A stretch of DNA of 64,000 nt from Neoroseomonas alkaliterrae (GTDB taxonomy: Bacteria > Pseudomonadota > Alphaproteobacteria > Acetobacterales > Acetobacteraceae): NCBI RefSeq assembly GCF_014199195.1, contig NZ_JACIJE010000005.1, positions 1 through 64,000 on the forward strand, written 5' to 3'. Under the pieces are notes generated by a model. It saw only the letters and a program-made list of their open reading frames with translations, had not been told where the DNA came from and made no database searches. This document shows positions 26,349 to 35,380 of the stretch, piece after piece. Each line of letters opens with the position of its first letter. Within the stretch, counting starts at the first letter, position 1. The translations under genes and the position numbers were made by a program.

Positions 26349-27986
26349 ATGCCCACCACGCCTGACACCTTCGACTACGTGATCGTCGGCGCCGGCGCCG
26401 CGGGGTCCATCCTCGCCGCACGGCTGACCGAGGATCCGGGTGTCACGGTCTGCGTGCTCGAGGCCGGACCGCCCGACCGCAACCCCTGGATCCACATTCC
26501 CGCGGGCTTCATCAAGACGCTGGTGGACCCCTCCGTGACCTGGCAGTTCCGCACCGCGCCCACCGAGCGCACCGGCGGGCGCGGCATCGCGACGATCCAG
26601 GGGCGCACGCTGGGCGGCTCCTCCTCCGTCAACGGCATGATCTACAACCGCGGCCAGCCGAACGACCTCAATGCCTGGGCGCAGCGCGGCAACCGCGGCT
26701 GGGGATACGAGGACTGCCTTCCCTACTACATGCGGACCGAACGCCGCATCGGCTTCGGCCGCGACGACCGGCGCGGCAAGGCCGGCGCGCTGCCGGTGAC
26801 CGACATGGACTGGATCCACCCGCTCTCGGAGGCCTTCATCGAGGGCTGCGTCGCCGCCGGGCTGCCGCGCAACCCCGACTACAACAGCGGCGACCAGGCC
26901 GGCGTCGGCTATTTCCAGCGCGGCATCCAGAATGGCTGGCGCGTCTCGGCCGCGCGCGCCTTCCTCAAGCCCGCCATGGCGCGCAAGGAACTCGAGGTGC
27001 GGACGAATGCGCGCGCCTGCGGCATCGTCTTCGAAGGCCGTCGCGCGGTCGGCATCCGCTACCTGACCGAGCGCGGCGGCACGCCCATCGAGGTGCGCGC
27101 GCGGCGGGAGGTGATCATCTCCGCCGGCACGGTGAACACGGCACGGCTGATGCAGGTGAGCGGCATCGGCCCGGCCTCGACGCTGGCGCGGATCGGCGTG
27201 CCGGTGTTCCACGAACTCCCGGTCGGGGAGAACTTCCGCGACCACTACGCCTCGCGGCTGGTGATGCGCGCCAAGCCGGGCGTCGAGACGCTGAACGAAC
27301 TCGCCCGCGGCTTCGGCCTCGTGAAGCAGATCGCGCGCTGGGCGTCGGGCAAGCCTTCCATCCTCGCCACCGCGCCCTCGCATGTGCACATCTTCTGGAA
27401 GTCCTTCGAGGGGCTGGACGAGCCCGATCTGCAGGGCGTCTTCACCCCCGGCTCCTATGCCGAGGGCAAGGTCTATGTCCTCGACGACTATCCTGGCTGC
27501 ACCGCCGGCGCCTGGCAGCACAGGCCGGAAAGCATCGGCTGGGTGCGTGCGCGCAGCACTGACGTGTTCGAGGACCCGGAGATCCAGCCGAACTATCTCG
27601 CCGACGAGAATGACCGCCGCGTGCATCTCGGCGGCATCCGCCTCATCCGCCGCCTGCTGCACACGCCGCAGATGATGCGCTTCCTCGAGCGCGAGACGCT
27701 GCCCGGCGTGAATGTCGAGCGCGACGACGAGCTGCTGGACTTCGCCTATCGCAACGGCAGCACGACCTATCACCTGATCGGCACCTGCCGCATGGGCCCG
27801 GCCGAGGATCCGACGAGCGTGGTCAATGACCGCCTCCAGGTCCACGGGCTGGAGGCGCTGCGCGTGGTGGACGCCTCCATCATGCCGGCGATGCCCTCGG
27901 CCAATACCTACGGGACCACGATGATGATCGCGGAGAAGGCCGCCGACTTCATCCGCGGCCGCCCGCCGCTGACCGCCGCGGCATGA
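26349..27986 (+). CDS. GMC family FAD-dependent oxidoreductase (choline-dehydrogenase-like)
   Basis: A 545-residue flavoprotein. FAD-binding VIVGAGAAGSILAARL is near 11, the GMC signature GRTLGGSSSVNGMIYNRG near 84, a second ISAGTVNTARLMQVSGIGP near 255, and GTCRMGP plus VVDASIMPAMPSANTYGTTMMIAEKAADFI at the C-terminus. The family oxidises alcohols to aldehydes. Its stop overlaps the crtC ATG (ATGA), so it is translationally joined to a carotenoid gene. That makes a carotenoid or terpenoid alcohol a candidate substrate, by inference only. Confidence 0.88.
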   Translation: MPTTPDTFDYVIVGAGAAGSILAARLTEDPGVTVCVLEAGPPDRNPWIHIPAGFIKTLVDPSVTWQFRTAPTERTGGRGIATIQGRTLGGSSSVNGMIYNRGQPNDLNAWAQRGNRGWGYEDCLPYYMRTERRIGFGRDDRRGKAGALPVTDMDWIHPLSEAFIEGCVAAGLPRNPDYNSGDQAGVGYFQRGIQNGWRVSAARAFLKPAMARKELEVRTNARACGIVFEGRRAVGIRYLTERGGTPIEVRARREVIISAGTVNTARLMQVSGIGPASTLARIGVPVFHELPVGENFRDHYASRLVMRAKPGVETLNELARGFGLVKQIARWASGKPSILATAPSHVHIFWKSFEGLDEPDLQGVFTPGSYAEGKVYVLDDYPGCTAGAWQHRPESIGWVRARSTDVFEDPEIQPNYLADENDRRVHLGGIRLIRRLLHTPQMMRFLERETLPGVNVERDDELLDFAYRNGSTTYHLIGTCRMGPAEDPTSVVNDRLQVHGLEALRVVDASIMPAMPSANTYGTTMMIAEKAADFIRGRPPLTAAA

Positions 27987-28918
27987 CGGGGCGCCCCTGG
28001 GCCTTCGACCGCCCGGTGCCGTCCCGCGGCTATCGCTGGTGGTATCTCGACGCGCTGTCCGCGGATGGCGCGCACGGCATCACCATCATCGCCTTCATCG
28101 GGACCGTGTTCTCGCCCTGGTATGCCTGGGCGCACCGGCGCGGCGCGGTGGACCCGGCGGAGCATTGCTGCCTCAACGTCGCGCTCTATGGCCGCCCGCG
28201 GCGCTGGGCGATGACCGACCGCCGCGCCTCGGCGCTGCACCGAGACCCGGCGAACCTCGCCATCGGACCCTCCCGGCTGAACTGGGACGGCGAGGCCCTG
28301 ACGGTGACGATCGAGGAGGTCACCGCCCCGCTGCCCCGGCGCGTCTCCGGCACGGTGCGTCTGCTGCCGGAGGCGCTCTCGGATCGCGCCTTCACACTCG
28401 ATGCCGCGGGGCGGCACCGCTGGCAGCCCATCGCCGCGCGCGCGCGCGTCGAGGTCGCGCTGACGCATCCCGCGCTGCGCTGGTCGGGCCCGGCCTATTT
28501 CGACACGAATGACGGCATAGCCCCGCTCGAGGAGGATTTCGCGACCTGGGACTGGTGCCGCGCGCCGATGCCCGAGGCGACGGCCGTGCTCTACAACGCG
28601 CGCCGCGCCGATGGCAGCGCGCAGTCGCTCGCGCTGCGCGTTCGCGGCGATGGCCGCATCGAGGAGTTCGAGCCGCCGCCGCCGGCCGAGATGGCGCCAA
28701 CGCTGTGGCGCCTGCCGCGCCCGACGCGCGCCGAGGGCGGCACGGCGCGCGCGGTGCGGACCCTGGTGGACGCGCCCTTCTATTCGCGTTCGGAGATCCG
28801 CACGCGGCTGCTCGGGCAGGAGGCGACGGCGGTCCACGAGTATCTCGACCTGCGGCGTTTCCGCTCGCCGGCGCTCTACGCCATGCTGCCCTTCAGGGTG
28901 CCGCGGACGCTGCGCTGA
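27983..28918 (+). CDS. crtC: carotenoid 1,2-hydratase (hydroxyneurosporene synthase) CrtC
   Basis: A 311-residue enzyme that adds water across the C1-C2 double bond of neurosporene or lycopene-type ends in spheroidene/spirilloxanthin synthesis. Family features are GYRWWYLDALSADGAHGITI near 16, FIGTVFSPWYAWAHRRG near 38, RDPANLAIGPSRLNWDG near 88, and a C-terminal EYLDLRRFRSPALYAMLPFRVPR. Its ATG overlaps the GMC oxidoreductase stop. The 3' end overlaps the convergent ATP-grasp gene by 26 bp. Membrane association is expected from the substrate. Confidence 0.93.
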   Translation: MTGRPWAFDRPVPSRGYRWWYLDALSADGAHGITIIAFIGTVFSPWYAWAHRRGAVDPAEHCCLNVALYGRPRRWAMTDRRASALHRDPANLAIGPSRLNWDGEALTVTIEEVTAPLPRRVSGTVRLLPEALSDRAFTLDAAGRHRWQPIAARARVEVALTHPALRWSGPAYFDTNDGIAPLEEDFATWDWCRAPMPEATAVLYNARRADGSAQSLALRVRGDGRIEEFEPPPPAEMAPTLWRLPRPTRAEGGTARAVRTLVDAPFYSRSEIRTRLLGQEATAVHEYLDLRRFRSPALYAMLPFRVPRTLR

Positions 28919-30077
28919 GTGCCGCCTCGCGCTGCGTAGTTGGGGCGAGGTCGCCGGGCCAGGCGAAGTCGAGCATCGCCACCTGGCCGAAGGTCGCGCG
29001 GCGCGCGATGGCCTCGCGGATGATGGGCCAGGAGGTCGCCGTCATGGTCAGGAACGGCTTCGGATCCTGCCTCGACCAGGTGACGTCGCGGGTGCGCAGC
29101 AGGGTCCGCAGGTTCCGTGCGAAGCCACCGCCGCGGACCAGGGAGAGCTGCGTCTCGGTCAGGCAGGAATAGAATTGCTGCAGTCGGCGTTCGGGGCGGA
29201 ATCGCAGCGGATGCGCGGGGTCGGAGACGGCGGGGGCGAGATCCCCGGCGGCGAAGAAATGCAGGCCGCTCGTCGTGCGCGGATTGCATTCGATGGCCCA
29301 GGGCCTGCCCTTCTCGTCGAGCATGAAGTCGAAGGCGAGGAATCCGGTCCAGTGTGTCGCGGCGGCATAGTCGCGCACGAAGGCCTCGATCAGCGGATCC
29401 TCCACGCGCTCGAAGGCGATGCTGACGGAGCCTGACTGCACGAGCGGCTGGTAGACCACCGTGCCGCTGACCACGCCCTCATGGACCAGGGAGCATGTGC
29501 TGCGCTCAGGCCCGGCGATCATCGCCTGCACGATCGCCGGCACCGCCGGATCGGGCGCGGGCAGGGCCGATCCCCGCGCCAGCCGGCGCATGCCGCTGCC
29601 CGAGCAGGCATGCAGGGGCTTCACCACGACATCCTGGCGCATGGCAAGGTCCGCCGCCTCCTCGCTGCCGAGCGGGTGGGTGCGCGGCACGGCGAGGCCC
29701 CAGGCTTGCGCCTGCGCGGCGAAGGCACCCTTGTCATGCGCCGCCAGCACGACCCCGGGCGGCATGGCGAAGAGCCGCGTGCGCGACGGCAGCCGGCCAT
29801 GCAGCGCCGCGACGTGCAGCACCTCCTCGGAGACGGGCACCACGAGATCGGCCTGCTCCTCCGCCACGACCCGCAGCAGGTCCTGCAGATAGGCCTCGCG
29901 GTCGGTGGCCGGGGCGGTGACGACATGGCTGCGCGCGACCGCCTTCGACGCGCCGGCGAGGTGCCGGCGGAAGGGCTCGGCCACCACCACGCGCCAGCCC
30001 GCGGCGTGGAAGGCGCGCGCGAGATCGAGCGCCTTCGGCAGCCGGCCCAGCGTCAGCAGGACCGTTCCCGCGCTCAT
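28893..30077 (-). CDS. ATP-grasp family ligase, unknown substrate
   Basis: A 394-residue ATP-dependent carboxylate ligase. An N-terminal pre-ATP-grasp Rossmann-like part begins VLLTLGRLPKALDLARAF. The ATP-binding VVKPLHACSGSG is at 151-162, and the Mg-binding GFLAFDFMLDEKGRPWAIEC followed by NPRTTSG is at 245-271. The family makes an acyl-phosphate and joins it to an amine, thiol or other nucleophile. The ATG overlaps the P450 stop (ATGA), so the two are coupled and lie between crtC and crtD. Carotenoid or terpenoid acid modification is possible but not shown. It is convergent with crtC, overlapping by 26 bp. Confidence 0.82.
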   Translation of the reverse strand: MSAGTVLLTLGRLPKALDLARAFHAAGWRVVVAEPFRRHLAGASKAVARSHVVTAPATDREAYLQDLLRVVAEEQADLVVPVSEEVLHVAALHGRLPSRTRLFAMPPGVVLAAHDKGAFAAQAQAWGLAVPRTHPLGSEEAADLAMRQDVVVKPLHACSGSGMRRLARGSALPAPDPAVPAIVQAMIAGPERSTCSLVHEGVVSGTVVYQPLVQSGSVSIAFERVEDPLIEAFVRDYAAATHWTGFLAFDFMLDEKGRPWAIECNPRTTSGLHFFAAGDLAPAVSDPAHPLRFRPERRLQQFYSCLTETQLSLVRGGGFARNLRTLLRTRDVTWSRQDPKPFLTMTATSWPIIREAIARRATFGQVAMLDFAWPGDLAPTTQREAALSAASAAP

Positions 30078-31471
30078 CCCGCGCTCGTGACGGTGACCAT
30101 GATCTGCTCCGCCGGCCGTGTCGTCAGCCGCGCGGCGGGGCGGACGCGGGCGGGATCGGCGACGTGGAAGTCGAAGCGGCGGAACAGGCGCGCGACAAGC
30201 AGCACCGCCTCCACCTGCGCGAAGGCGGCGCCCGCGCAGACCCTGGGGCCGATCCCGAAGGGGATGTAGGCCCCCGCCGTCGTCTCGTGCTCGCGCGCCG
30301 CCTCGAAGCGGTCGGGGTCGAAGAGATGCGGCGCCCGCCAGTAGTCGCGATGGCGATGCAGCACCCAGGGCGCGACCATGACGAGCGCGCCCCGCCGGAC
30401 GCGATAGCCATCGAGCGCGGTCTCCCTCAGCGCCACGCGCGGCAGGAAGGTGATCGGCGGGTAGAGGCGCAACGTCTCGCGGAACACGTTGCGGATGAAG
30501 GGGAGCCGCTTCGTGTGCTCGAAGGTCACGGGGCCGTCGCCGCAGATCTGCTCGACCTCGGCGCGCAGGCGCGCGACCAGCGCGGGCCGGGTCGCCAGGA
30601 TGTAGAAGACCCAGGTCAGGGCGCTCGCGCTCGTCTCGTGACCGGCGAGGAACAGCACGCCGAGCTGGTCGATCAGCTCCTCCCGGGTGAAGCCGCGGCC
30701 TTCGAGGTCGCGCGCCTCGATCACCGCGGCGCAAATGTCGTCGAAGCGGGCGCCCTCGGCGAGATGGGTGTCGAGCAGCGTGCCGAGATGCCGGCGTATC
30801 AGCGCGCAGGCATCGAGCACATGGCGCTTCTGCGGGATGCGCGTCCAGGCGCGGTCCATGATCAGGCGACGTATCTCGACCTGCGCGACCGAGCGCTCGA
30901 ACAGCGTGAAGGCGTCGAACACCTCGTGCGCCACGCGCGTCTGCAGGCTCGTGGAGAACACCGTCCGGCAGATGATGTCCGCCGTCAGGTGGCTCATCAG
31001 CAGGTCGAGGGAGAGCGCCCTGCCCGATCGCGCGGCCTCGGCCAGCGTCGCTTCGGCCTCCGCCGCGCCGGCCTCCATGGCCGGGAAGGCACGGTTGACG
31101 CGCATCATGGTCAGCGCCGGGTCGATCATCGCGCGCTGGCGTCGCCAGGTTTCGCCCGAGGAGACAAAGATGGAATCGCCGATCAGCGGATCGAGCGCAT
31201 TCACCATCAGGTCGCTCTTGGGGAAGATGCCGTCGGGGTCCGACAGCACATGGCGGACGAGGTCCGGGCGGTTGACGATGATCGTCGAGCGCCGCGACCA
31301 GCCGAGTGGGCCGATGGGAACCGTGTAGGCCTCGGCGGGCAGCAGGCCGAGCAGGTTGCCATCGCCCTCGAGCAGCGCGCGCAGCAGCGCGATCACCGCC
31401 GGCAGGGACCGCGGGTGCGGCGGCTCGAAGGGAGCGAGGGACAGGCCGGGGGAAGCGAGCGTCGCGCTCAT
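30074..31471 (-). CDS. cytochrome P450 in the carotenoid gene block
   Basis: A 465-residue soluble-type P450. The C-helix is WRRQR at 109-113, the I-helix oxygen-activation motif is AGHET at 276-280, the K-helix ExxR is ETLR at 332-335, and the heme ligand is Cys412 in FGIGPRVCAG. The layout without an N-terminal anchor resembles CYP102/CYP175-like bacterial enzymes, and some P450s in carotenoid clusters hydroxylate ionone rings or chain ends. No ferredoxin gene is adjacent. It is coupled to the ATP-grasp gene. The promoter region has an everted TTGACA palindrome. Confidence 0.92.
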   Translation of the reverse strand: MSATLASPGLSLAPFEPPHPRSLPAVIALLRALLEGDGNLLGLLPAEAYTVPIGPLGWSRRSTIIVNRPDLVRHVLSDPDGIFPKSDLMVNALDPLIGDSIFVSSGETWRRQRAMIDPALTMMRVNRAFPAMEAGAAEAEATLAEAARSGRALSLDLLMSHLTADIICRTVFSTSLQTRVAHEVFDAFTLFERSVAQVEIRRLIMDRAWTRIPQKRHVLDACALIRRHLGTLLDTHLAEGARFDDICAAVIEARDLEGRGFTREELIDQLGVLFLAGHETSASALTWVFYILATRPALVARLRAEVEQICGDGPVTFEHTKRLPFIRNVFRETLRLYPPITFLPRVALRETALDGYRVRRGALVMVAPWVLHRHRDYWRAPHLFDPDRFEAAREHETTAGAYIPFGIGPRVCAGAAFAQVEAVLLVARLFRRFDFHVADPARVRPAARLTTRPAEQIMVTVTSAG

Positions 31472-31534: not shown

Positions 31535-31568
31535 TCGGATTGTCGCATGGACGCGGGAGGTGCCGAGA

Positions 31569-32306
31569 GTGGAACTCCACCTGTTCCATGCCCTCATCGC
31601 CCTGCACATCGTGACGGGGGCCACGGGCGCCATCGCCTTCTGGGTTCCCGTGCTCGGCCGCAAGGGCGGGCCGGCGCACCGGCGCTGGGGGCGGCTGTTC
31701 AACCGCTGCATGGTCGCGACCGGGTGCCTCGCCATGGCGATGGCGATGCTGACCCTCATCGCACCGATGGCGACGCATCCGCATCTCGAGGGCCGCTTCG
31801 ATCCCGACTTCATCCGCGGCATCTTCGGCTGGATGATGCTGACAACCGCGCTGCTGACGGTGAACCTCGCCTGGTATGGATGGCTCGCCGTGCTGAACAA
31901 GCGCGCCGGGCATGCGCGCAACCGCACCCCGCTCAACATGGCGCTGCAGCATGTCCTGCTGGTCGCCTCAGTCAATTGCGCGGCGCAGGGCTGGCTGATC
32001 GGCCAGCCGCTGATGCATGGCGTCGCCGGCATCGGCATCGCGACCGCGGTGACGAACCTGCGCTTCCTCCGCAGCGAGGCGCCCGGCCCCACCTATTGGC
32101 TGAAGGAACATGTCAAGGCGCTCGTCGGCGCGGGCATCTCCGTCTACACGGCCTTCATGGCCTTCGGCTCGGTGCGTATCCTGCCGGAACTCGCGCTGCA
32201 CCCCGTCATGTGGGCCCTGCCCTGCGCGACCGGCATCGCCGTCATCCTCTGGCACTGGCGGGCGGTGGACCGGCAATACGCGGCACGCAGGCCCGCACCC
32301 GCCTGA
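31569..32306 (+). CDS. multi-spanning membrane protein upstream of crtD
   Basis: A protein of about 245 residues with six to seven hydrophobic segments, among them IALHIVTGATGAIAFWVPVL, GCLAMAMAMLTLIAPM, IFGWMMLTTALLTVNLAWYG and LVGAGISVYTAFMAFGSV. Conserved-looking polar residues (His, Arg) lie at the membrane edges, as in DUF2306-type proteins. The start is set at GTG 31569, nine bases after GGGAGG. A GTG at 31560 directly abuts that site. crtD follows after 6 bp, so the pair is probably an operon. Function is unknown. Confidence 0.75.
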   Translation: MELHLFHALIALHIVTGATGAIAFWVPVLGRKGGPAHRRWGRLFNRCMVATGCLAMAMAMLTLIAPMATHPHLEGRFDPDFIRGIFGWMMLTTALLTVNLAWYGWLAVLNKRAGHARNRTPLNMALQHVLLVASVNCAAQGWLIGQPLMHGVAGIGIATAVTNLRFLRSEAPGPTYWLKEHVKALVGAGISVYTAFMAFGSVRILPELALHPVMWALPCATGIAVILWHWRAVDRQYAARRPAPA

Positions 32307-32312
32307 ACCTGC

Positions 32313-33842
32313 ATGGCTGATCCGCGCATCGTCGTCATCGGCGCCGGCATGGGGGGGCTCGCGGCGGCGGCCGACCTCGCGCGCCGCGGCGCCGAGGTCA
32401 CGGTGGTCGAACGCGCCTCCGCGCCGGGCGGCAAGATGCGGCAGGTGGCGGTCTCGGGCGTGGCGATGGACGCGGGACCGACCGTGTTCACGATGAAATG
32501 GGTCTTCGACGCGCTGTTCGGCGAAGCGGGCCGCCGCTTCGAGGATCATGTCACGCTGCATCGCGCCACGATCCTCGCGCGCCATGCGTGGCGGCGCGGC
32601 GGGCGGCTCGACCTGTTCGCCGACCGCGAGCGCTCGGCCGACGCGATCGGCGCCTTCGCCGGCGCGCGCGAAGCCGCAGGCTACCGCGCCCTGTGCCGGC
32701 GCAGCGCGGACATTCATCGCACGCTGCTCGGCACCTTCATCGCCGCGGAACGGCCTTCGCAGTTCGATCTGGTCCGCCGCGTCGGCGTCGGCCGGCTCGA
32801 TGCGCTGTTGCGCACCACGCCCTTCTCCACCTTGTGGCAGGCGCTGGGCGAGCATTTTTCCGACATCCGCCTGCGCCAGCTCTTCGCCCGCTATGCAACC
32901 TATGTGGGATGCTCGCCCTTCGCGGCGCCCGCAACCCTGATGCTCATCGCCCATGTCGAGCAGGAGGGCGTCTGGCTCGTCGAGGGCGGCATGCGCCGCG
33001 TCGCCGAAGCCATCCAGGGCCTTGCCGAAGCCCAGGGCGCGACCTTCCGCTTCGGCACGGCGGCGAGCCGCATCATCGTCGAGAGGGGCCGTGTCGCCGG
33101 CGTCCTGCTGGCCGACGGCGAAAGGCTTCCGGCCGATGCGGTGGTCTTCAACGGCGCGCCGGAGGCCCTGGCGACCGGCCTGTTGGGCGATGCCGTGCGC
33201 GCGGCCGTATCACCCGTGCCTCGGCAGGATCGCACCCTCTCCGCCGTCACCTGGTGCGCGCATGCGCCAGGCAGCGGCTTCCCGCTGGAGCATCACAACG
33301 TCTTCTTCGCCGAGGACTACGCGGCGGAGTTCGACGCGGTGTTCCGCCGCCGCGCGATCGTCGCCGCGCCCACGGTCTATCTCTGCGCACAGGACCGCGG
33401 GGGCACCACGCACCCTGCGGAAGGCAGCCCCGAGCGCATGCTCCTTCTCGTCAATGCGCCGCCGGATGGCGACCGCAGCACGATGGATGCGGAACAGAGG
33501 GAGGCGCTGACCGGTCGTGTTCTTGGCCTGCTGCGCGAATGCGGCCTGACGCTCGACCTCTCGGACAGCAACACGCGGATGACCACGCCCGCGGAGTTCG
33601 AGGCCCTGTTCCCGGCCAGTGGCGGTGCGCTCTACGGCCGGCTGGGGCATGGCTTCAACGGCAGCTTCTCACGGCCGGGGGCGCGCAGCGCCGTGCCCGG
33701 CCTCTATCTCGCCGGCGGCGGCGTGCATCCGGGGCCGGGCGTGCCGATGGCAACCCTCTCGGGGCGCCTCGCCGCCGCTCGGCTGCTCGAGGATCGCGCC
33801 GGCCGCCGCAGCAGCGTCATCGCCCTCCCGGTGCCGGGTTGA
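32313..33842 (+). CDS. crtD: 1-hydroxycarotenoid 3,4-desaturase (methoxyneurosporene dehydrogenase) CrtD
   Basis: A 509-residue FAD-dependent desaturase of the CrtI/CrtD family. IVVIGAGMGGLAAAADLARRG is at 5-25, MDAGPTVFTMKWVFDALF near 52 is typical of CrtD, and ATYVGCSPFAAPATL is near 194. The C-terminal GLYLAGGGVHPGPGVPMATLSGRLAA is the second FAD/substrate segment. With CrtC and CrtF it forms the methoxylated ends of spheroidene or spirilloxanthin. Its 3' end overlaps the convergent crtI by 26 bp. It is probably co-transcribed with the membrane protein upstream. Confidence 0.92.
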   Translation: MADPRIVVIGAGMGGLAAAADLARRGAEVTVVERASAPGGKMRQVAVSGVAMDAGPTVFTMKWVFDALFGEAGRRFEDHVTLHRATILARHAWRRGGRLDLFADRERSADAIGAFAGAREAAGYRALCRRSADIHRTLLGTFIAAERPSQFDLVRRVGVGRLDALLRTTPFSTLWQALGEHFSDIRLRQLFARYATYVGCSPFAAPATLMLIAHVEQEGVWLVEGGMRRVAEAIQGLAEAQGATFRFGTAASRIIVERGRVAGVLLADGERLPADAVVFNGAPEALATGLLGDAVRAAVSPVPRQDRTLSAVTWCAHAPGSGFPLEHHNVFFAEDYAAEFDAVFRRRAIVAAPTVYLCAQDRGGTTHPAEGSPERMLLLVNAPPDGDRSTMDAEQREALTGRVLGLLRECGLTLDLSDSNTRMTTPAEFEALFPASGGALYGRLGHGFNGSFSRPGARSAVPGLYLAGGGVHPGPGVPMATLSGRLAAARLLEDRAGRRSSVIALPVPG

Positions 33843-35361
33843 GGACGCGCCAGGCCTGCGCATCCGGCACGAGCTGATCGAGGATCTTCGCCGAGGAGAT
33901 GACGCCAGGCACGCCCGCGCCGGGATGAGTGCCGGCGCCGACGAGGAACAAGTTGATGACCTCCTCGCTCCGGTTGTGAGGCCGGAACCAGGCGCTCTGG
34001 AAGAGCTGCGGTTCGAGCGAGAAGGCCGCACCGTTCACCGAGAGCAGGCGGTCGCGGAAATCGAGCGGCGTCATCGTCCGGGAGGTCACGATCGCCTCGC
34101 CCAGTCCCGGCAGCACGGTCTCCTCAAGGCGTCGCTGGATGGCGGCACGATAGGGCTCGGCCTGCGTCGTCCAATCCACGCCGCTGCCGAGATGCGGCAC
34201 CGGCGCGAGCGCGTAGAAGGCGTCGCAGCCCGCGGGCGCAAGGGACGGGTCGCTCGCCGTCGGGCGGTGAAGGTAGAGGCTGAAATCCTCGGCGAGGCGC
34301 TTGCGCGTGAAGATGTCGGTCAGCAGCGCCTCGTAGCGCGGACCGAGCACCATGGTGTGGTGATAGACATCCTCGTAGCGGCGGCGCGTGCCGAAATACC
34401 AGACGAAGAGGCTCATGGAGTAGCGCGCGCGCGCGATCCTGCGGTCGGTCCAGCGCCGGCGCGGGTGATGGCCGAGCAGTTTCGAGTAGGTCCAGGCGAC
34501 ATCGGCGTTCGAGACGACGATATCGGCCGATATCCGCTCGCCCGATGCGAGAACGACGCCGATTGCCCGGCCCTCGGCGACCTCGATCCGAACGACATCG
34601 GCATTGCAGCGGATCGTGCCGCAAAGATGCCCGATGAGGCCGGCCATGCCGCGGATCAGCGCGCCCATGCCCCCCATCGCGTAGTGGACGCGGTGCTTCC
34701 GTTCGAGATGCGCGATGAGGCAGTAGTAGGCCGTGGTCGTCAGCGGATTGCCGCCGATCAGCAGGGGGTGGAAGGAGAAGGCGGTGCGGAGTTTGGGGCT
34801 GGTGAAGTAATCGCCCACCTTCGCATGGACCGTCCGGTATCCCTGGAGCCGGATCATGTCCGGCGCGGCGCGCAACAATGTCGTGAAGCGGTGGAACGGA
34901 CGGTCCACCAGCTCCTCGAAGGCGACGCGGTAGATGCGTTCGCTGTCGCGCAGGAAACGGTCGAAGCCCGGCAGATCCTGCGGCGCGATGCGCCGGATCT
35001 CCTCGCGCGTGGCATCCGCATCTGCGCCGCAGCGCATCGTCGTGCCGTCGTCGAAGCGGATGAAGTAGAACGGGTCCAGCTCGCGGATCGTCACATCGTC
35101 GGCGAGGCGGCGGCCTGCGCAGGCCCAGAGTTCCTCGATCAGATAGGGCGCGGTGATGATCGTCGGCCCGGCGTCGAAGGTGAAGCCGTCCTGACGGAAG
35201 ACGCCTGCGCGCCCACCCGGCGCATCGAGGCGCTCGAGCACCGTCACGCGCCAGCCGCGTGCGCCGAGACGGATCGCCGCCGCCAGACCGCCGAAGCCCG
35301 ACCCGATGACGACCGCATGCGGCCTTTCGTCCCGCGGACCCTCGGTGCCGTCGCGCGCCAT
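33817..35361 (-). CDS. crtI: phytoene desaturase CrtI
   Basis: A 514-residue FAD enzyme introducing three or four double bonds into phytoene. HAVVIGSGFGGLAAAIRLGARG near 14 is the dinucleotide fold and DAGPTIITAPYLIEEL is near 63. HYAMGGMGALIRGMAGL lies mid-protein and NLFLVGAGTHPGAGVPGVISSAK is the C-terminal carotenoid-desaturase signature. The start ATG at 35361 has only a weak GCGAGGG site. It lies 18 bp beyond the terminator-like hairpin after pufC on the same strand, so expression depends on read-through or an internal promoter. Confidence 0.94.
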   Translation of the reverse strand: MARDGTEGPRDERPHAVVIGSGFGGLAAAIRLGARGWRVTVLERLDAPGGRAGVFRQDGFTFDAGPTIITAPYLIEELWACAGRRLADDVTIRELDPFYFIRFDDGTTMRCGADADATREEIRRIAPQDLPGFDRFLRDSERIYRVAFEELVDRPFHRFTTLLRAAPDMIRLQGYRTVHAKVGDYFTSPKLRTAFSFHPLLIGGNPLTTTAYYCLIAHLERKHRVHYAMGGMGALIRGMAGLIGHLCGTIRCNADVVRIEVAEGRAIGVVLASGERISADIVVSNADVAWTYSKLLGHHPRRRWTDRRIARARYSMSLFVWYFGTRRRYEDVYHHTMVLGPRYEALLTDIFTRKRLAEDFSLYLHRPTASDPSLAPAGCDAFYALAPVPHLGSGVDWTTQAEPYRAAIQRRLEETVLPGLGEAIVTSRTMTPLDFRDRLLSVNGAAFSLEPQLFQSAWFRPHNRSEEVINLFLVGAGTHPGAGVPGVISSAKILDQLVPDAQAWRVLNPAPGGR

Positions 35362-35380
35362 GGCTGGCCCTCGCTGCAAG

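Follow-up and report, generated by a model that had tools for sequence, protein, structure and literature searches.

The three genes considered here, encoding a cytochrome P450 (P450), an ATP-grasp ligase (ATPG) and a 248-residue membrane protein (M248), lie in the first 64,000 nucleotides of contig NZ_JACIJE010000005.1 of Neoroseomonas alkaliterrae (hereafter the window; genome of 4.24 Mb in 50 contigs). The genes are intact, travel together among genomes and sit within clusters of carotenoid (crt) and bacteriochlorophyll (bch) genes. We take them to be a module for tailoring the photosynthetic carotenoids, with a probability of about 0.5. There is good support for a role in carotenoid tailoring; the precise reactions, including the formation of an alcohol or acid and its ligation to an amine that had been put forward in the original prediction (made from the letters of the window), are what we infer.

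The same 299 Acetobacteraceae genomes were searched for pufM (E 1e-60), the ATP-grasp protein (E 1e-10), the P450 (E 1e-100) and M248 (E 1e-10). The P450 was found in 32 genomes (26 at 69-100% identity and six at 55-57%) and the ATP-grasp protein in 27 (26 with at least 50% identity, and G181 with 33% and no crt genes in the stretch examined); the genomes with a close P450 (at least 69%) and those with a close ATPG (at least 50%) were the identical 26. M248 was found in 31 genomes, every one P450-bearing (all the P450 genomes except G207, the contig of which ends 174 bases past the P450 gene), and is linked to P450 in more genomes than ATPG is (31 vs 26 of 32). A pufM match was present in 25 of the 26 genomes with the pair, compared with 96 of the 299 overall (Fisher p 8e-13, the related genomes not being independent); G120, the sole pair genome without such a match, is 80% complete. 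Since 71 pufM genomes were without the P450/ATPG pair, the pair is one option among phototrophs. All 20 pair loci with wide flanks contained P450, M248 and a crt gene; the other six of the 26 genomes were the window genome, G267 and G160 (short loci with crtC), and G148, G257 and G284 (short loci without crt genes).

When named genomes were scanned by the ATP-grasp sequence alone, 32 loci were obtained, of which 31 were scorable (L061, a 65-residue fragment, was dropped at the E-value limit). Among the 26 loci at 44% identity or more, P450 was present in 24, M248 in 21 and a crt gene in 23, which bears out the original prediction in tying the pair to carotenoid and photosynthesis clusters; the loci short of a gene (L035, L039, L043, L054, L057) are truncated by a contig end that falls inside P450 or ATPG. 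The positive contigs include some labelled Sphingomonadales, Steroidobacteraceae, Brevundimonas and Gammaproteobacteria (unchecked labels of metagenome-assembled genomes, MAGs), several with crtE-crtF-bchCXY, and three MAG contigs labelled gammaproteobacterial (L046, L048, L050) carry P450, ATPG and M248 with crt and bch genes. In a second alphaproteobacterial family (that of G582), P450 was found in 10 of 60 genomes, and in each of the 10 the stretch examined also contains ATPG, M248 and crt genes; in locus L185 of this family the gene order is scrambled and all the genes are retained. A common occurrence of the pair without carotenoid genes was looked for and not seen: with the thresholds used and in the DNA examined, P450, M248 and crt genes were found in 0 of 5 and 0 of 6 loci of distant ATP-grasp relatives (below 40% identity; L174, one of seven distant loci, was dropped at the E-value limit), and these 11 scored loci, of the PRK06849 type described below, are in this respect unlike the window.

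Gene order points in the same direction. In 18 of the 24 loci bearing all three genes, crtC and crtD flank the P450 gene; the immediate neighbours of the module are mostly crt genes (crtC, crtD, crtB, crtI), and this location among crt genes is conserved across lineages. From location, co-occurrence and gene order, we consider it very probable that the P450 acts on a carotenoid and oxidises it. As bch and puf genes are also close, the module might instead modify another photosynthetic lipid (the esterifying alcohol of bacteriochlorophyll, or a quinone), the crt adjacency arising because the whole cluster is kept together; this is improbable in view of the nearest neighbours, of the 18 loci just mentioned and of loci L063 and L064, in which P450 follows crtD-crtC on a single strand. 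The -4 spacing of P450 and ATPG was seen in 30 of 46 related loci (some records duplicate a genome), and since this spacing recurs and the gene set is kept across families, the arrangement is beyond chance. Loci L001-L029 duplicate places later examined with wider flanks, the pairs L036/L086, L051/L074 and L031/L088 are identical or almost so in sequence, and stretches are common to L044/L022, L045/L021 and L057/L028; such repeats are still within the counts for intergenic hexamers, for the -4 spacing and P450 motifs, and for the crtC, GMC oxidoreductase and gene-order tallies. Alignment A2 was without L051.

In the unrooted tree, a branch with 100/100 support sets the six P450s of 55-57% identity apart from the others, and their genomes gave no ATPG match at E 1e-10. 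All six have crtC or crtD on the same stretch (L063 and L064 among them). Of the six genomes, five also contain M248, which is next to P450 in L064 and L065; in G103, G240 and G270 it is on a different contig from P450, with P450 or M248 near a contig end. Four of the six have pufM; no match was obtained in G294 (75% complete) or in G207, the P450 contig of which has bchX and bchY. Because the genomes with a diverged P450 keep M248 (5/6) without ATPG, the base unit seems to consist of P450 and M248, with ATPG appearing to mark a single clade. These genomes are also what speaks for the P450 (with M248) making a carotenoid aldehyde, ketone or epoxide by itself, as an aerobic counterpart of CrtA ketolation or rhodopinal-type oxidation, with ATPG an accessory acting on another substrate; moreover, no enzymes are given for rhodopinal or for the C-19 aldehyde of gemmatoxanthin in the available parts of two articles (PMC10604819, PMC8342508). 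We regard such an arrangement as unlikely, given the identical sets of P450 and ATPG genomes in the main clade and the 4-bp overlap in most loci.

The P450 has the hallmarks of its superfamily (the heme-thiolate Cys motif, the AGxET I-helix and ExxR). The I-helix AG.ET was conserved in 49 of 49 aligned rows and the heme motif in 47, the remaining two (one contig twice) having F replaced by Y with the Cys kept, and E[ST][LM]R was found in 43 rows and E[GA][LM]R in the other six. The best match among PDB sequences was CYP97A3/LUT5 (E 7.7e-54), with further P450s at 1e-45 to 1e-33 and carotene epsilon-monooxygenase at 3.9e-33; assignment to a P450 family usually needs more than 40% identity. The CYP97 hydroxylases share the superfamily and act on C40 carotenoids, substrates that are only proposed for the window enzyme; they are ring hydroxylases of plant plastids, whereas the window P450 is a distant match, bacterial, in an acyclic pathway and accompanied by an ATP-grasp partner. 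Carotenoid tailoring by P450s is already known; the novelty lies in its pairing, within a photosynthesis cluster, with M248 and an ATP-grasp ligase.

ATPG belongs to the ATP-grasp superfamily by its fold and its ATP/Mg residues, and its catalytic motifs are conserved among relatives. The top two Foldseek matches of the model were an L-amino acid ligase (BL00235) and PylC (18% identity), which have the fold in common with ATPG and are carboxylate-amine ligases with amino acid substrates; the model fold is equally near to carboxylases. ATPG is a putative carboxylate-amine ligase. It scored 240.8 bits against NCBIfam PRK06849 (NF005315), short of the curated cut-off of 406 for equivalog status; that family is of the same ATP-grasp lineage (24-37% identity), with a Rieske oxygenase adjoining in several loci. 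Distant relatives recur in an operon with KASIII, an NAD(P)-dependent oxidoreductase, an MBL-fold hydrolase and an F390/CoF-synthetase-like protein, with GNAT proteins in some cases and a Rieske oxygenase in some (L055-L060, L170-L173, L175-L177; Bacillota, Rhizobium, Novosphingobium and others, partly plasmid-borne), and other surroundings were seen in Deinococcus and in the proteobacterial loci L169 and L174. The KASIII-type operons are probably lipid operons; they suggest, without proof, lipophilic acid substrates for this ATP-grasp lineage and a habit of acting beside an oxygenase.

That ATPG acts on the same molecule as the P450 is slightly favoured. If an ATP-grasp enzyme follows a P450, the simplest division of labour is that the P450 makes a carboxylate and the ligase joins it to an amine, and on this ground we tentatively propose a carotenoid acid as the P450 product and an amide as the ATPG product. 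Alternatively, the P450 may hydroxylate the carotenoid, and the acid activated by ATPG may be a different, small one (carboxylic or amino) that is joined to the hydroxyl or to an amine (an ester or depsi-type product); the pathway would then include no carotenoid acid. P450s most commonly catalyse a single hydroxylation, the Foldseek top matches of ATPG activate amino acids, the same gene linkage applies, and nothing cleanly separates this alternative from the carotenoid acid and amide; yet the distant ATPG relatives beside chain-building KASIII genes hint at a lipophilic acid substrate, and we hold the hydroxylation alternative to be rather unlikely.

The window has crtI, crtC and crtD (and, by inspection, crtF and crtE), so acyclic substrates of the spirilloxanthin type are predicted. 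It is strongly indicated that the substrate of the P450 would be an acyclic C40 carotenoid from the spirilloxanthin-type (CrtI/CrtC/CrtD) series, oxidised with O2, and that M248 would be its membrane partner, with a possible part in substrate handling or an electron or heme role. With less confidence, the oxidation may be carried through to a carboxyl at a methyl carbon, by analogy with the 16-oic acid of gemmatoxanthin; ATPG might then activate this carboxylate as an acyl phosphate and couple it to an amine or amino acid, and the resulting conjugate might be a polar carotenoid located in the membrane or in light-harvesting complex 1 (LH1). In lineages with P450 and M248 and no ATP-grasp gene, the endpoint would be the oxidised carotenoid.

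Several points weigh against this interpretation. In 28 hand-chosen loci the distance correlation of P450 with ATPG (r 0.82) was no higher than that of P450 with crtC (0.86). We found no published pigment analysis for any strain shown to bear the pair. Two strains with published pigments may or may not carry it, namely Sediminicoccus KRV36, with carotenoid bands at 483, 508 and 540 nm of spirilloxanthin-like appearance (PMC10949492), and Elioraea tepida, which makes spirilloxanthin (PMC8781829).

If the proposal is right, an amide-linked conjugate of a C40 carotenoid acid would be a new class of photosynthetic pigment, ATP-grasp ligation would join the repertoire of carotenoid tailoring, and purple-bacterial carotenoid biosynthesis would, to our knowledge, gain its first ATP-grasp ligase and its first P450. 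The module would also offer, by analogy, a candidate enzyme type for the unexplained gemmatoxanthin acid, and a strain may be incompletely described when it is called a spirilloxanthin producer on the strength of crtC/D/F only. The presence of the three genes in many phototroph clusters makes a question about oxidised-carotenoid enzymes testable genetically. No description of the module was found in the open-access literature searched, and a prior description elsewhere is possible.

Among known systems, CrtA (spheroidene monooxygenase) resembles the proposed module in using O2 to tailor acyclic carotenoids of purple bacteria, and we know of no ATP-grasp partner for it. It differs from the window enzyme in having a five-coordinate heme and in not being a P450, according to the part of a 2023 review available to us (PMC10604819). 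The original prediction had placed the pair outside the standard spheroidene/spirilloxanthin pathway, and this stands for the P450 half of the claim only, no P450 step being named in that part of the review, which apart from the remark on CrtA mentions P450s in general terms. Gemmatoxanthin, from the aerobic, bacteriochlorophyll-bearing phototroph Gemmatimonas phototrophica, is a linear C40 carotenoid 16-oic acid; the proposed module is similar in that a linear C40 carotenoid carboxylic acid would be formed in a phototroph (an acid only proposed here), and different in that CruH-like genes were suggested for the acid by the authors, the enzymes for acid and aldehyde not being identified in the accessible sections of that article (PMC8342508).

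A C30 carotene dioate and its diglucosyl ester are described from Roseococcus in the available portion of another report (PMC12654162), and Roseococcus contigs have the order crtI-M248-P450-ATPG. This dioate was considered as evidence for an acid-making P450 and rejected, since three of the four genomes behind such contigs (G691-G693) have crtC and crtD elsewhere and also two CrtI-family genes in tandem (33-36% identity), which would fit a separate C30 carotenoid pathway; in the fourth (G694, a 2.2-Mb MAG) crtI and a crtD-like gene were seen, and neither crtC nor the tandem pair. Tandem CrtI-family genes (33-38% to crtI), besides crtI and crtD, were also observed in the Roseomonas/Roseococcus-type genomes G697, G216, G231 and G188.

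The features of the locus are given in Table 1. The setting is a Roseomonas-type photosynthesis gene cluster, with the pair flanked by crtC and crtD. In the window crtC, crtD and crtI were named by family search, and the other crt, puf and bch genes by inspection.

Table 1. Features of the carotenoid locus in the window (coordinates on the forward strand).
Feature	Position	Strand	Evidence and remarks
GMC oxidoreductase	26349-27986	+	Pfam GMC_oxred N and C; predicted start
crtC, carotenoid 1,2-hydratase	27983-28918	+	NCBIfam CrtC 1.2e-93, 313.5 bits, below cut-off 400
ATPG, ATP-grasp ligase, 394 aa	28893-30077	-	Pfam ATP-grasp_3 E 3.6e-6, 27.6 bits, cut-off 23.2; complete
ATGA start/stop overlap of ATPG and P450	30074-30077	-	sequence
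P450, cytochrome P450, 465 aa	30074-31471	-	Pfam p450 E 3.3e-72; complete
Palindrome TTGACA-N8-TGTCAA	31514-31533	.	M248/P450 divergent region
M248, 248-aa seven-helix membrane protein	31560-32306	+	divergent from P450; remotely DUF2306-like; putative GTG start
crtD, 1-hydroxycarotenoid 3,4-desaturase	32313-33842	+	NCBIfam CrtD 671 bits, cut-off 580
crtI family phytoene desaturase	33817-35379	-	TIGR02734 612 bits, cut-off 238

The complete P450 gene overlapping a complete ATP-grasp gene between crtC and crtD agreed with the original prediction in its coordinates, as checked with the window sequence and Pfam. At the junction the DNA reads GGGATGAGCG, the ATG of ATPG and the TGA of P450 sharing ATGA. 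The 3' end of ATPG overlaps crtC tail to tail by 26 bp, and the GMC oxidoreductase gene overlaps crtC by 4 bp. Past crtD, the minus-strand genes are crtI, pufC, pufM, pufL, bchZ, bchY, bchX and more photosynthesis genes. The GMC oxidoreductase had been proposed as part of the route, a proposal that we do not retain: of 28 loci with crtC, 7 have it no more than 500 bp from that gene, and all 7 are of the Roseomonas/Neoroseomonas type, so that it is lineage-specific, not core. A second crtD-like gene (40-50% identity) adjoins crtC, besides the closer crtD (61-69%), in L071, L072, L077, L078, L083, L084 and L087.

M248, placed between P450 and crtD, was overlooked in the original prediction. Its AlphaFold2 (AF2) model (predicted local distance difference test, pLDDT, 85) is that of a seven-helix protein of an orphan membrane family with conserved histidines, and no fold in the PDB matched it at E below 0.1. 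The window protein did not reach the Pfam gathering score for DUF2306 (no match at E 10), and 11 of 16 aligned M248 members matched that family at E up to 1 (best 2.3e-4). A profile search of 398 genomes of the phylum gave 10 matches, which include the window genome and G582, with the full gene set; seven others are remote (26-38%), with no reference crt genes nearby. In G643 (L111) a 43% M248 copy stands directly after pufC in the photosynthesis cluster of another alphaproteobacterial family, P450 being absent from the stretch examined. The palindrome in the divergent region is perfect and has an identical layout in L032, L033, L034 and L049, and TTGACA or TGTCAA was present in 37 of 44 M248/P450 intergenic regions (counting 30 bases into each gene). 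The common -35 box has the sequence TTGACA as well, and the palindrome could represent overlapping -35 boxes or a regulator site.

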